A program made the position numbers and the translations under genes. This document shows positions 11,489 to 34,977 of a DNA stretch of 64,000 nt, one piece after another. Within the stretch, counting starts at the first letter, position 1. Every line of letters starts with the position of its first letter. The DNA lies in the NCBI GenBank assembly GCA_020073385.1, contig JAIQFH010000033.1, positions 1 to 64,000 on the forward strand, read 5' to 3'. The notes under the pieces were generated by a model. That model was not told where the DNA came from, did no database searches, and saw nothing but the letters and a program-made list of their open reading frames with translations. The DNA is from Terriglobia bacterium. GTDB lineage: Bacteria > Acidobacteriota > Terriglobia > Terriglobales > Acidobacteriaceae.

Positions 11489-11806
11489 CTAGCGCAAGCG
11501 TGTATTCGTGCCGACATTCTGCGATTCGGTGTCGTATTGAATGAAGCTGCTCAGCACGAGATCGGGGCTCCAAAAGTAGGCACTTTGCAGTCGCCACAGA
11601 CGTTGGACGAAGTTGCCTTGGGGGAGGTGCTCGAAATCATTTTCGACGCTGGCTTCAAGTTGTACTCGGCCTTTTGGAGATGTCCTCTTCAGACAGTTTT
11701 GCCATTGAGTTAGGGGCCATCTCTGGAAAAATCTCAGAGTGAATAAGTGTTCAATATCTCCTAACAAAAGACCGAGATTTGGCCTTCTAGAAGAGCCTCG
11801 GAGCAA
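11489..11806 (-). pseudogene. Remnant resembling the C-terminus of a DUF5916-type outer-membrane protein
   Basis: The middle of this leftward frame (ENDFEHLPQGNFVQRLW, then FWSPDLVLSSFIQYDTESQ and VGTNTRLR) resembles the last beta-strands of large DUF5916/CBM9-type outer-membrane proteins, where NTRLRW is normally followed by 30-60 more residues. Here the frame stops right after NTRLR. The upstream part is lacking and the frame overlaps the end of the esterase gene by 20 bases. I read it as a broken 3' fragment between the island repeat and the esterase operon. The similarity is from memory and needs a search. Confidence 0.45.
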
Positions 11807-12974
11807 AGTCTTTCAGATCGCGGCGCCACGTCTGCCACTCATGGTCTGTACCGGGCGATTCGTAAAAGACGTGCTGAATGTTTGCTTCGAGCAGCGAATT
11901 GTGCAGGCGCTGGAGTCCTGCGCGCATTCTCTCCGGTTCTGCGGTTCCGACCCCAAGCCAGAGCAAGTGCACTTTCTTGGCGAATGCTGCCGGATCAGCG
12001 AAGACTCCGTTGTAATCGGTTTTGGGGTCTAGTTTGCGATCGCCCAGCACAAGCATGCCGCCGGCTCCACTGAAACCGCCAATGTAAGAAAAAAGATCGA
12101 GATGATTGAGCGTGGTCTGGAACGTCTGCATTCCTCCCATGGACAGGCCAGCCATAGCGCGATGATCGCGATCGGATAGTGTGCGGAAGGTTGAATCAAC
12201 GTAGGGAATCAGGGCCTGCGTCACATCGTCTTCAAATGCTGCAGCCATTTCCTGCATCGCCTTCAGCATTTCGGGAGAGCCAAACGGTTTTCCGGTCAGA
12301 TCGGACAAATTTTGGCCGGCGCGTTTGGCATAGCCGTAGGCCATCACGACGATCATCGGCTTGCAACTCTTGGCTGCGATCAGATTGTCGAGGATGAAAT
12401 TGGCATTGCCTTGGCGAATCCAGCCGGTCTCGTCCTCACCGGCGCCGTGTTGCAAATAGAGCACCGGATAGCGGTCTTTCGTCTGTGTATCGTAGTTCGG
12501 CGGCAGATAGACCAGCGCGTGCCGCCAGCTACCCGTTACCTTCGAGTTGTACCAGACCTCCCGGACTTGGCCGTGGGGCACATCCTGAATCGAGTAATAG
12601 GTCGAACCCGGCTCAGGAACCTCGACCCCACTTGCTTCCTTGGTTCCACCAAAGAACGCATGCGTGTTGAGGTCGCTGACTTCCATGCCATCGATGATCA
12701 GCGTGTAGTAGTGAAAGCCGGGAACGAGTGGTGGAGTCGTGACGGTCCAGTATCCGTCCTGCTGTTTCTCCATGTCCACTTTCGGCCCGCTCCAGAAATT
12801 CAATCTGACCTTCGTGGCGTCGGGGGCCTTCACACGAATCTGAACTCTCCCGGCGCTGTCAACTCGCGGATACTCTGCTCCCCAAACGTTGGTTGAGGAG
12901 GGCTGAAAACCGCCCGCCTCTTGTGCACAGCAAAAACTCGCGAAAAGGATGATTGCTATTCCGATGTGCTTCAT
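11787..12974 (-). CDS. Secreted esterase D/Fes-like alpha/beta hydrolase
   Basis: A 395-residue exported hydrolase. ATG 12974 starts a signal peptide ([18 protein letters not shown]) and has GGGAGG nine bases before it; an in-frame start nine codons upstream is less likely. Residues of about 30-130 form an early-set/CBM48-like beta-sandwich ([31 protein letters not shown]). The rest is the esterase domain: oxyanion region ([17 protein letters not shown]), nucleophile elbow GLSMGG at about residue 276, and a terminal His in GTDHEWQTW. This is the layout of XynZ/Fae-type feruloyl or acetylxylan esterases. It is the last gene of the leftward arm and a paralogue sits at 31132-32301. Confidence 0.85.
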
Positions 12975-13027
12975 CTTTACCAGCCCTCCCTCATGTTTCA
13001 CTTAGTCATGGGTGAAACCCGTCCTGC

Positions 13028-32334: not shown

Positions 32335-33246
32335 ATGATTAGGCCGGCACTCATGATTGGGCTAGGCGAAGTTCTCTGGGACGTTCTGCCCACCGGAAGG
32401 GTATTGGGTGGCGCTCCCGCAAACTTCGCTTACATGACAAACGTACTTGGAGATCAGGGGATTGTCGCCAGTAGTGTCGGAAACGACGAATTGGGTCGTG
32501 AAGCTTGCCAGCTCCTGCAAGAACTGGGTCTGAACACCTCATACCTGCAGCGGGACGATCTTCACGAAACAGGCATCGCAACCGTAACGATTGACGGAAC
32601 AGGTCAGCCGAACTTCACCATTAAGGAATCTGTAGCATGGGATTTTCTGGACTGGACGGCAGATTGGGAGGAGTTGTCGGCGAGGGCTGAGGTCATCTGT
32701 TTCGGATCGCTCGCGCAACGCTCGTCGACCTCCGCAGGCACGATCGACCGTTTTCTGCAAAACGCGCATCCGAAGACTATTCGCATATTTGATGTGAACC
32801 TCCGTCAGTCGTTCTACAACAAGGATGTGTTGCGGAAGTCGTTTGAATATGCCGACATCATCAAGCTGAACGAGCACGAGCTGATTCAGGTTTCATCTCT
32901 GTTCGAATTAGGTACAGGAACTGCAGAATTCCTTGCCCGGCGACTGCTACAGGACTTCGATCTGAAGCTTGTCTGTATAACGCGCGCTGATCGGGGAAGC
33001 CTTCTTGTGTCACGAGGGCAAACAGTTGAGCATACAGGATTCCAAGTCACGGTGGCCGATGCTATCGGCGCTGGGGACGCATTCACTGCATGTCTTGCAC
33101 ATCACTATGTTCGCGGAAATCCATTGCAGCAAATCAGTGAAGCTGCTAATCGGTTTGCATCATGGGTTGCAACCCAGCGGGGCGCCACTCCGCCGATCAC
33201 TCCAGATCAGTTGCAGAAGATTCTTACCGAGGTTCCTCTTTATTGA
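32335..33246 (+). CDS. PfkB-family sugar kinase, fructokinase-like
   Basis: A 303-residue kinase of the PfkB/ribokinase family. Signature 1 (GGAPANFAYMTNVLG) and signature 2 (DAIGAGDAFTACL) are intact, with catalytic Asp in GAGD. Specificity resembles bacterial fructokinases (GEVLWDVLPTG at the N-terminus). Fructose is the product of sucrose phosphorylase, so phosphorylation to fructose 6-phosphate would complete sucrose use. It is cytoplasmic and sits 33 bases after the esterase gene. Fructose specificity is inferred from motif and context. Confidence 0.88.
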   Translation: MIRPALMIGLGEVLWDVLPTGRVLGGAPANFAYMTNVLGDQGIVASSVGNDELGREACQLLQELGLNTSYLQRDDLHETGIATVTIDGTGQPNFTIKESVAWDFLDWTADWEELSARAEVICFGSLAQRSSTSAGTIDRFLQNAHPKTIRIFDVNLRQSFYNKDVLRKSFEYADIIKLNEHELIQVSSLFELGTGTAEFLARRLLQDFDLKLVCITRADRGSLLVSRGQTVEHTGFQVTVADAIGAGDAFTACLAHHYVRGNPLQQISEAANRFASWVATQRGATPPITPDQLQKILTEVPLY

Positions 33247-33384
33247 CGTTTCGGGGCAGGGCGCGTTCCACCCCCCAAGAACCTGATCCCAAAGTTCAAC
33301 GACCTGCTGCCTAGGCAGAAGTGAACGGATATACCGCTGTGCAACCGGATTTGGCTCCCGGTGGCAACAAAGGAGAGCGAGAGG

Positions 33385-34977
33385 ATGATTTCTTCGCAGT
33401 GTAGGGTTGCAGTCGGGCTATTGGGTCTGATTTTATTGGGCTTGTTCGGAAGTGCCGCTTTTGCTGAAACCGTCAAGGTGGAAGGCGGCCTGCTCCAGGG
33501 GACTATTGAGGACGGTCTCCGCGTATATCACGGTATTCCTTACGCTGCTCCGCCCGTAGGCGATCTCCGTTGGCGCCCACCGCAGCCTCCGTCGAAGTGG
33601 GATGGAGTTCGCGTCGCAGACCAGTTCGGTCGGGCGTGTATACAGACAAATGCGGCAATCGCAGATCTGCCCGCCCCCAGCGAAGATTGTCTGTACCTGA
33701 ACGTGTGGACGCCAGCCAAGCGCGTCGAAGAGAGCCTGCCCGTTCTGGTTTGGATTCATGGGGGCGGTTTCGTGGCGGGCGCACCGGCCGAGAAGCTTTA
33801 CCACGGCGAATGGTTGGCTAAAAAAGGGGTAGTCGTGGTTTCGATCGCATATCGTCTCGGCGTATTTGGCTTTCTGGCTCATCCCGAACTGAGCGCCGAA
33901 AGTGCTCGGCACGTATCGGGCAACTACGGCCTTCTCGACATGATTGCAGGGCTGCAGTGGGTTCAGAAGAACATCTCCTCATTTGGCGGCGATCCCAAGA
34001 AGGTGACAATACAGGGCGAATCCGCAGGCGCGGCTGCGGTAAGCATCCTTTGTGCATCACCGCTGACCAAGGGTCTGTTTCGCGGAGCGATCGCTGAGAG
34101 TGGAGCTACGTTCGGACCGGTGCGGGCCGACGCGTCATTTGGTGAAGCCGAACCGTTTGCTAGTGCTGAGAAAAGAGCCGCAGAGTGGCTCTCCTCGATA
34201 GGCGTCTCCGGCATCGCGGAACTGCGGAAGATTCCCGCCGAGAAGTTGCAGACGATGATACCGCGTCAATTCGGATGGGCTCGTCCAAATGTTGACGGAT
34301 GGGTGATTGCGGGAGACCAATACAAACTTTACGAGTCAGGCAAACATAATGACGTGCCGGTGCTGACGGGTTACAACTCTGATGAAGGTTTGTTATTCGG
34401 AAATCCTAAATCCCACGAAGCCTATGTTCAGAGTGTGCGCGAGCGGTACCAGCAGTTTGCGGACAAGATTCTCGCTGCGTACCCGGGCGGTGCAACGCCT
34501 GCGGAGCAGAGGTCCGAACGCGACCTAATTCGCGACTCAGCGTTTGGTTGGAACGCGTGGGTGTGGGCTCAGCTGCAAACGAAAACAGGCAAGTCGAAGG
34601 TATTTTTGTACTACTTCGACGAGAAGGCCGAGATTCCCGCTGGATCTGAAGGCGCTGGCTACGGAGCCCGACACGCCTCCGAGCTTCCCTATGTGTTCCG
34701 CCAGCTTACGGAACACGGTCGTCCTGCCCCAACTCCGCAAGACGAGGCTCTGTCGGACATGATGAGCACTTACTGGACCAACTTCGCCAAGACCGGTGAT
34801 CCGAACGGTACCGGCCTGCCGAATTGGCCTAGTTATAACGATGCGATGCCACAGATGTTGCACATCGAGGTAGGAAATACGAAGGCAGGCCCAATGGTCA
34901 ACGTAAATGGGCTAAAGGTGTTGGACGCATATTTTGCGTCGCGTCGAGCAGATGAGGTGTCGCCTGCAGCCCATTAG
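33385..34977 (+). CDS. Exported type-B carboxylesterase
   Basis: A 530-residue carboxylesterase (COesterase family). ATG 33385 has AAGGAG nine bases before it and begins a signal peptide (MISSQCRVAVGLLGLILLGLFGSAAFA). Motifs: SEDCLYLNVW, oxyanion HGGGF, nucleophile GESAGA at about residue 212, acidic residue in NSDEGLL and His in GARHASELPYVF. These enzymes cleave aromatic and aliphatic esters with broad range. It is the last gene of the rightward arm, 139 bases after the fructokinase, and 160 bases before the right island repeat. Confidence 0.9.
   Translation: MISSQCRVAVGLLGLILLGLFGSAAFAETVKVEGGLLQGTIEDGLRVYHGIPYAAPPVGDLRWRPPQPPSKWDGVRVADQFGRACIQTNAAIADLPAPSEDCLYLNVWTPAKRVEESLPVLVWIHGGGFVAGAPAEKLYHGEWLAKKGVVVVSIAYRLGVFGFLAHPELSAESARHVSGNYGLLDMIAGLQWVQKNISSFGGDPKKVTIQGESAGAAAVSILCASPLTKGLFRGAIAESGATFGPVRADASFGEAEPFASAEKRAAEWLSSIGVSGIAELRKIPAEKLQTMIPRQFGWARPNVDGWVIAGDQYKLYESGKHNDVPVLTGYNSDEGLLFGNPKSHEAYVQSVRERYQQFADKILAAYPGGATPAEQRSERDLIRDSAFGWNAWVWAQLQTKTGKSKVFLYYFDEKAEIPAGSEGAGYGARHASELPYVFRQLTEHGRPAPTPQDEALSDMMSTYWTNFAKTGDPNGTGLPNWPSYNDAMPQMLHIEVGNTKAGPMVNVNGLKVLDAYFASRRADEVSPAAH

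Follow-up and report, generated by a model that had tools for sequence, protein, structure and literature searches.

Predicted co-regulation of exported esterases and sucrose phosphorolysis at a GntR-LacI-type locus in an acidobacterial genome

The window analysed here is a 64,000-nucleotide stretch of contig JAIQFH010000033.1 (assembly GCA_020073385.1) from the 8.23-Mb genome of a soil Terriglobia bacterium of the family Acidobacteriaceae. The locus span examined within it (positions 11787-34977) contains genes for six predicted esterases of five families, a GH31 glycoside hydrolase, a DUF4432-like protein, an Oar-type TonB-dependent receptor, a major facilitator superfamily (MFS) permease, a sucrose phosphorylase (SP), a fructokinase, and a GntR-LacI-type regulator (Table 1). 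These genes had been listed in an earlier note on the same DNA, and the list was confirmed by Pfam and NCBIfam matches above cut-off, with the exception of the mutarotase-like gene, whose DUF4432 match falls below it. Two tandem genes of the DUF34/NIF3 family, designated NifA and NifB here, had been overlooked and were identified by Pfam. This report concerns the predicted linkage, under one regulator, of these esterases to sucrose phosphorolysis.

Table 1. Genes and predicted operators in the span examined (window positions)
Feature	Position	Strand	Matches and remarks
Fes1, CE1-type esterase (accessory block)	11787..13001	-	PF00756, 90.8 bits; AGLSMGG and TDHEW motifs
Tannase/feruloyl esterase family (accessory block)	13028..14569	-	PF07519, 353 bits
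GH31 glycoside hydrolase (accessory block)	14634..17213	-	PF01055, PF21365, PF13802
DUF4432-like (galactose-mutarotase-like) protein	17359..18570	-	PF14486, 23.4 bits, below cut-off (32.5)
MFS permease, candidate sucrose importer	18592..19854	-	MFS_1, 142 bits
Sucrose phosphorylase (SP), GH13_18	19859..21397	-	TIGR03852, 457.5 bits (cut-off 334.4)
Predicted operator AAGTTGTATATGG between sp and gntR	21499..21511	+	13-mer
GntR-LacI-type regulator	21548..22702	+	PF00392 and PF13377 (Peripla_BP_3); likely true start ATG near 21587
Predicted operator AAGTTGTCTATAC before oar	22845..22873		22845-22857 on the minus strand; second half-site 22862-22873 (by eye)
Oar-like TonB-dependent outer-membrane receptor	22960..26757	+	PF25183, 659 bits; PF13620; CarboxypepD_reg
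HSL-type esterase	26747..27979	+	PF07859, 104 bits
NifA, DUF34/NIF3 paralog	27986..28861	+	PF01784, 50.5 bits; no evident signal peptide
NifB, DUF34/NIF3 paralog	28866..29756	+	PF01784, 46.7 bits; twin-arginine-type N-terminus
GDSL esterase	29763..31085	+	PF13472, 100 bits; PF00657; GDS, GIND, and DxxH motifs
Fes2, CE1-type esterase	31102..32301	+	PF00756, 86.5 bits
PfkB-type kinase	32335..33246	+	PF00294, 142 bits
Type-B carboxylesterase (COesterase)	33361..34977	+	PF00135, 392 bits; right end of conserved module

The closest PDB matches of SP are the sucrose phosphorylases 7znp (558 bits) and 1r7a (541 bits), and a glucosylglycerol phosphorylase scored 397 bits. Alignment with 1r7a identified the motifs IRLDAVGY, LVEIHSHY, VLDTHDG, YRPRPGLPF, and NLDLYQVN, which include the nucleophile Asp, the acid Glu, the stabilizer Asp, and the acceptor loops known from 1r7a. 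The window's catalytic and acceptor-site motifs recur, slightly altered, in ten relatives. The TIGR03852 match, the PDB matches, and the active-site motifs together bear out the identification made in the earlier note, and an enzyme of the sucrose type, similar to BaSP, is well supported by the sequence; another GH13_18 specificity, such as that of glucosylglycerol phosphorylase, is less likely by score and by motifs. The PfkB-type kinase is probably a fructokinase, as had also been claimed, its nearest PDB entry being 2qhp, which was deposited as a fructokinase (214 bits). The MFS gene is present in 22 of 23 acidobacterial SP loci, and an MFS gene whose product shows 54-56% identity follows SP in Acidovorax, Paracidovorax, and Variovorax (L095, L101, and L127). 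Since the same type of MFS stands beside SP in these Proteobacteria, the protein, which has weak PDB matches only, is a candidate for an unrecognized group of sucrose permeases. The receptor was assigned by PF25183 and PF00593. Export signals were judged by eye throughout: SP, the kinase, NifA, and the DUF4432-like protein lack a signal, and the receptor and all six esterases have Sec-type N-termini. This layout agrees with the earlier suggestion that deacylation would take place outside the cytoplasm and phosphorolysis within it, export itself being predicted.

In the genome as a whole, Pfam searches for the five esterase families returned 16 (PF00756), 6 (PF00135), 6 (PF13472), 15 (PF07859), and 4 (PF07519) match rows, which were merged by hand into approximately 38 distinct genes; two tannase genes are above cut-off genome-wide, one of them in the locus. 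When 37 genes were placed at random, six esterases fell within 23.2 kb in none of 200000 trials, and with 45 genes this occurred in 3 of 200000; the clustering of esterases is thus beyond chance. The ratio of nonsynonymous to synonymous substitution rates (dN/dS) ranges from 0.06 to 0.19 in the twelve genes compared, and likewise in the nine compared with L077, indicating purifying selection.

Among the individual esterases, the tannase family protein contains, in addition to its profile match, the Ser, Asp, His, and CS-HC motifs, and its nearest PDB entries are MHETase and then feruloyl esterase B. Esterases of the HSL (hormone-sensitive lipase) type are characterized by HGGG, GxSxG, Asp, and His motifs. 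The HGGG, GCSAGG, and His motifs are present in the product of the HSL-type gene (five sequences compared), and the canonical Asp position is occupied by Gly (TGTRGFELSS) in the window, L077, G067, and G118 and by Asp in G184, which possibly reflects the use of an alternative acid or a loss of hydrolase activity. The nearest PDB entries of Fes2 are 7b5v (CE1, E = 1.5e-90) and then 6mot/6mou, with ferulic acid esterase entries below them. Fes2 shares 63% identity with its positional counterpart in the closest relative, compared with 81-87% for its neighbours on L186, suggesting replacement or fast change.

That closest relative is a metagenome-assembled genome (MAG) of Candidatus Sulfotelmatobacter (L077), whose SP is 92% identical and the nearest with a name among the 80 loci kept of 286 matched relatives, in a contig scan that may omit records very near the window. 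Nucleotide synteny with this relative covers 17355-31478 on L077 and 30424-34979 on L186, interrupted at Fes2, which has diverged; 11791-16978 matches L161, a different contig of the same relative, on which an 87% counterpart of the GH31 gene lies beside the tannase gene. Because synteny ends at 17355 and the accessory block lies on a separate contig in the closest relative, the span consists of two modules: a core of approximately 17359-34977 and an accessory CE1-tannase-GH31 block at 11787-17213. The "one divergent locus" of the earlier note is therefore to be divided, and a single system including GH31, tannase, and Fes1 was rejected on the same grounds. The core order DUF4432-MFS-SP / GntR-Oar-HSL-NifA-NifB-GDSL-Fes2-PfkB-COesterase is kept in G067, G118, and the closest relative (L077/L186). 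In G118, a GH32 gene, whose product has a twin-arginine-like N-terminus by eye, separates MFS from DUF4432; in G067, additional genes precede the last COesterase. On L077, a tyrosine-recombinase-like frame (17327-18520, by eye) lies approximately 3.3 kb past the DUF4432 end of the module, which fits a sporadic and possibly mobile distribution. Directly to the right of the module, positions 35939-40785 of the window contain an unassigned 384-aa open reading frame (ORF), after which come a Reg_prop sensor kinase and a frame resembling a response regulator.

Accessory genes also occur without the core. Fes1 was found apart from SP on L160, L161, L169, and L171, and the tannase gene accompanies Fes1 away from SP on L160 (in G118, on a contig other than that of SP) and on L169, L171, and L174 in genomes without an SP match. 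The unity originally proposed is not supported, GH31, tannase, and Fes1 being separable from SP, although a tannase gene stands with the SP module in two genomes, G067 (80% identical) and G097 (75%). Of the 200 genomes searched from the order, the window's own among them, nine contain SP; it was found in none of the 13 further genomes listed for the same genus. The co-occurrence of SP and tannase genes, which the earlier note had suggested searching for, was followed up in part: the tannase subtype (≥59% identity) is enriched in SP genomes, being present in five of nine compared with 17 of 191 others (Fisher p 0.001; this test and the binomial test below ignore relatedness), and strict pairing was rejected because the subtype occurs in 22 of the 200 genomes (own included), five of them with SP.

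The linkage of esterases to SP recurs beyond the close relatives. The SP loci compared were drawn from the 80 kept, supplemented by stretches fetched from whole genomes; the 80 comprise 14 acidobacterial loci, 61 others, and five that were dropped as duplicates of G118, G197, G020, G115, and G184. With eight esterase queries, 51 esterase-type matches were found in 23 acidobacterial or acidobacterium-like SP loci and one in 20 control loci. Each control surrounds a NIF3-family gene, and some of them are stretches from elsewhere in the window's genome, G067, and G197. No match to these queries was found in the 61 SP loci of other phyla; the queries being acidobacterial, remote esterases may have escaped them. 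Two of the 23 loci are contig ends of G031. The named acidobacterial entries of the contig scan are MAGs, for whose contigs mis-binning is possible (L084 carries the label Deltaproteobacteria). The window's six esterases, used alone as queries, gave 18 matches in 283 kb (17 SP loci outside the window's clade, nine of which contain at least one esterase) and 1 in 312 kb (the 20 controls; binomial p 1.6e-5); the gdsl2 and ceramidase-like queries, taken from L093, do not enter this test, and L093, L094, and L097 are close kin, which reduces the number of independent events. The gene orders in which the linkage recurs differ. In companion-gene Pfam scans of representative loci, a ceramidase-like gene (PF04734, Ceramidase_alk) was found near SP and esterases in six loci: G097 (L016), L079, L085, L086, L093, and L094. 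A gene for a PhlG-type 2,4-diacetylphloroglucinol hydrolase (PF18089) lies near SP in another acidobacterial MAG (L081:3082-3975), which hints at phenolic ring chemistry there.

The strongest evidence for one esterase and sucrose-phosphorolysis response comes from paired predicted operators, which were found in loci of the window type as well as in distant loci. The regulator is 83-93% identical in L077, G067, G118, and G097, and the intergenic regions beside gntR have in common the consensus AAGTTGT(A/C)TAT(A/G)(G/C). In the window, the sites are AAGTTGTATATGG and AAGTTGTCTATAC, and the second half-site of the latter sits just 5' of a TTGACA box. The window's genome contains three exact copies of the 13-mer, two of which flank gntR at the SP and Oar-esterase operons. 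Nine copies occur in twelve other genomes: G067, G118, G097, and G200 each carry a pair at the locus, and the ninth copy is a stray in G200. The second copy in G097 lies between a receptor gene and the tannase gene. Both strays fall within long, unrelated frames, which by eye resemble penicillin-binding-protein and polyketide-synthase genes. No exact copy was found in G070, G014, G087, G092, G146, and G151, genomes that gave no SP match. What counts as evidence is that paired sites at a single locus are conserved in several genera and that copies are rare elsewhere.

A diverged operator, AACCTGTATT, occurs exactly twice in each of the distant Terriglobia MAG loci L093 and L094, whose regulators are 54-55% identical. 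One copy lies just in front of the likely start of a GDSL-GDSL-tannase-COesterase-ceramidase-like series, the other just in front of that of gntR-pfkB-sp-mfs; since the ORF caller takes the earliest start, some of them lie inside called frames, just before a later, likelier start. Of the 13 distant loci scanned, nine others have no copy; L097 has one at a contig edge, and in L091 an exact copy is accompanied by a near copy next to gntR (by eye). The degenerate pattern AA(C/G)(C/T)TGTAT gave 7 matches in the 13 loci, compared with 4 for the reversed control. Both operators would be bound by the GntR-LacI-type regulator, and there is good support for the view that the putatively exported esterases and sucrose phosphorolysis are co-regulated. 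Scans for sigma-70 promoters and terminators gave matches no more frequent than in shuffled sequences.

We propose, as a reading with about an even chance of being correct, that the core module is a substrate-responsive system for the uptake and degradation of acylated sucrose, the likeliest substrates being phenolic (hydroxycinnamic) or acetic esters. In such a system, the Oar-type receptor would carry the sucrose ester across the outer membrane, and the GDSL, CE1, HSL, and carboxylesterase proteins, putatively exported and evident as to family if not as to substrate, would deacylate it in the periplasm, perhaps assisted in this genome by the accessory tannase and the second CE1 enzyme. The MFS permease, as its pairing with SP suggests, would import the freed sucrose, which SP would convert to glucose 1-phosphate and fructose, and the PfkB-type kinase would convert fructose to fructose 6-phosphate; the types of both enzymes are well supported by their sequences. 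The regulator, acting at the two conserved operator sites, would couple the esterase and phosphorylase operons. Removal of the acyl groups by the bacterium would thus give it access to the sucrose. Phenylpropanoid sucrose esters have been reported from several plant families, and synthetic sucrose esters with several cinnamoyl groups inhibited alpha-glucosidase when a mono-ester did not (PMC7830900, in the part of the text available).

Several observations weigh against this proposal. Related loci share ancestry, so that the counts given above are not independent, and eight of the 23 acidobacterial SP loci have no esterase match, including those of G020, G115, and G031 (SP and MFS), some of these loci being short contigs. 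The CE1-tannase-GH31 block exists apart from SP. The 13-mer was derived from the intergenic regions in which it was then counted, and its presence there is by construction; read backwards, it gives one match in the window's own genome and seven in the twelve others, from which single sites are to be expected by chance; and exact copies are missing from G213 and from G184 (which has near variants), two genomes with regulators of 75% identity. Glycosidase genes also stand near SP in relatives, namely GH51-type genes (PF06964) in L079, L093, L094, and L097, GH32 genes in G118, G097, G197, and L092, and a GH127 gene and a borderline GH43 gene next to esterases in G184, 14-18 kb from SP, leaving room for other plant glycans. 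Finally, the ferulic acid esterases in the PDB that Fes2 resembles are known from xylan systems, and this likeness makes hemicellulose esters possible substrates.

Hemicellulose esters are indeed the main rival. Sucrose or fructose could serve as a cue of plant tissue for a broad plant-matter regulon, whose esterases act on unrelated esters (feruloylated or acetylated hemicellulose) with no molecule common to SP, an explanation we regard as possible but doubtful. The PDB matches of Fes2 named ferulic acid esterase, the GH51-type, GH127, and GH43 genes just mentioned, and the occurrence on L161 of tannase-CE1-GH31 alongside GH3 and GH51-type genes, in the absence of SP, are all in keeping with it. 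However, no xylanase or other polysaccharide-cleaving family is among the Pfam matches of the core module, and no single glycosidase is constant across the recurring, variously ordered linkages of esterases and SP. In another explanation, which we consider unlikely, the substrate would be a larger decorated oligosaccharide with an alpha-glucosyl-fructose end, such as an acylated fructan or a glycosylated phenylpropanoid sucrose ester, and esterases together with GH31, GH32, or GH51-type enzymes would trim it before sucrose entry. The GH32 gene inserted in the G118 module and the GH32-like genes of G097, G197, and L092 would suit such a substrate, as would the GH51-type gene, which adjoins MFS in L093, L094, and L097 and lies near it in L079, but none of these enzymes is encoded between DUF4432 and COesterase in the module of the closest relative. 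GH32-like genes are, moreover, near SP in 10 of the 61 loci of other phyla, where no esterase was matched, so that GH32 by itself points only to the use of sucrose or fructan. A coincidental neighbourhood in esterase-rich genomes, without joint function, is most improbable. In its favour are the 7-18 tannase match rows of several SP genomes and the clear separability of the tannase block, and against it are the paired operator, synteny, purifying selection, and the density test.

NifA and NifB resemble the DUF34/NIF3 family in the PF01784 match and, for NifB, in the HxxxE motif and the nearest PDB entries, which are 9g9u (E = 1e-41) with SA1388 also near. They differ from it in linkage to SP, in the twin-arginine-type N-terminus of NifB (reading SRRRF, by eye) and its HE instead of HH, and in NifA, where the alignment shows the metal-site histidines to be replaced. 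H98, E99, H136, D137, H140, E232, H259, and E263 of NifB are invariant in 16 aligned sequences chosen from 29 of the B type; the L071 and L072 copies, which were left out, deviate, having Cys for the first His and lacking other positions. The conserved positions, with HE in place of HH, are consistent with the metal motifs of the family (dual His, HxxxE) as given in the available part of PMC8469502, the main text of which, to that extent, contains no mention of 'signal peptide', 'periplasm', or 'Acidobacteri'. NifB relatives (E 1e-15 or better) occur in 52 of the 200 genomes of the order, and most of those viewed start with a Tat-like (twin-arginine translocation) or Sec-like signal by eye. 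L092 and L090 also have NifB-like genes next to SP or gntR, and in L103, an Anaerolineales locus, the distance to SP is approximately 2.5 kb. The neighbours of NIF3 genes were rejected as a clue to function: at 20 other NIF3 loci (16 single-copy and four two-copy), the other genes of the cluster are absent but for a few matches, receptor-like in five loci and to COesterase in one. Among the matches listed in open-licence PubMed Central, no mention of 9G9U was found, and NIF3 in combination with glycoside, lyase, and metal-dependent gave a single match, which was unrelated.

NifA may possibly be exported together with NifB through the Tat pathway as a hitchhiker pair. We consider it quite unlikely that the fullest form of the proposal holds in all its parts, i.e. 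that a recurrent acidobacterial GntR-LacI system consumes phenolic sucrose esters of plants, among them inhibitors of alpha-glucosidases, that are stripped outside the cytoplasm, with phosphorolysis saving energy, and that the Tat-exported NIF3 protein and its signal-less, degenerate partner constitute an unrecognized metal-dependent acyl-sugar enzyme. If it did hold, a catalytic role would be given to a family of debated function. The acyl-sucrose proposal, if true, would provide a testable regulon with a short operator, a sucrose permease candidate common to Acidobacteria and Proteobacteria, and a genetic context for studying the role of exported NIF3-family proteins. Open-licence PubMed Central literature contained, among the matches listed, nothing on bacterial acyl-sucrose catabolism and, for Acidobacteria with sucrose phosphorylase, no work on such loci.

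Compared with known systems, the locus shares with the SP loci of Burkholderiales, Chloroflexi, and other groups an SP of 60-67% identity, whereas esterase matches to the acidobacterial queries occur in none of those 61. It was also compared with the polysaccharide utilization loci of Bacteroidota, a type that has a SusD-like lipoprotein gene next to the receptor and was rejected because no SusD family appeared in the Pfam matches (18 proteins scanned). Fes2 aligns over most of its length with the CE1 and ferulic acid esterases 7b5v, 6mot, 6mou, and 6rzo, which are known from xylan loci, whereas no xylanase family was matched in the present module. The nearest described system found is the sux locus of Xanthomonas campestris, a sucrose CUT (carbohydrate utilization containing TonB-dependent receptor) locus in which suxA encodes the TonB-dependent receptor, suxB an amylosucrase, suxC a transporter, and suxR a repressor (PMC1790865, in the part of the text available). 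Both loci combine a TonB-dependent receptor, an inner-membrane sugar transporter, a sucrose-cleaving enzyme, and a dedicated regulator, and in the present case the linkage of the receptor, the MFS_1 transporter, and the GntR-LacI-type regulator is kept in relatives. An amylosucrase as in sux was considered for the window's enzyme and rejected in favour of a phosphorylase. The present locus thus differs from sux in having SP in place of amylosucrase, a GntR-LacI-type regulator, a fructokinase, an Oar-type receptor, and co-regulated, putatively exported esterases, at least four of which, with the NIF3 pair, lie downstream of the predicted operators.

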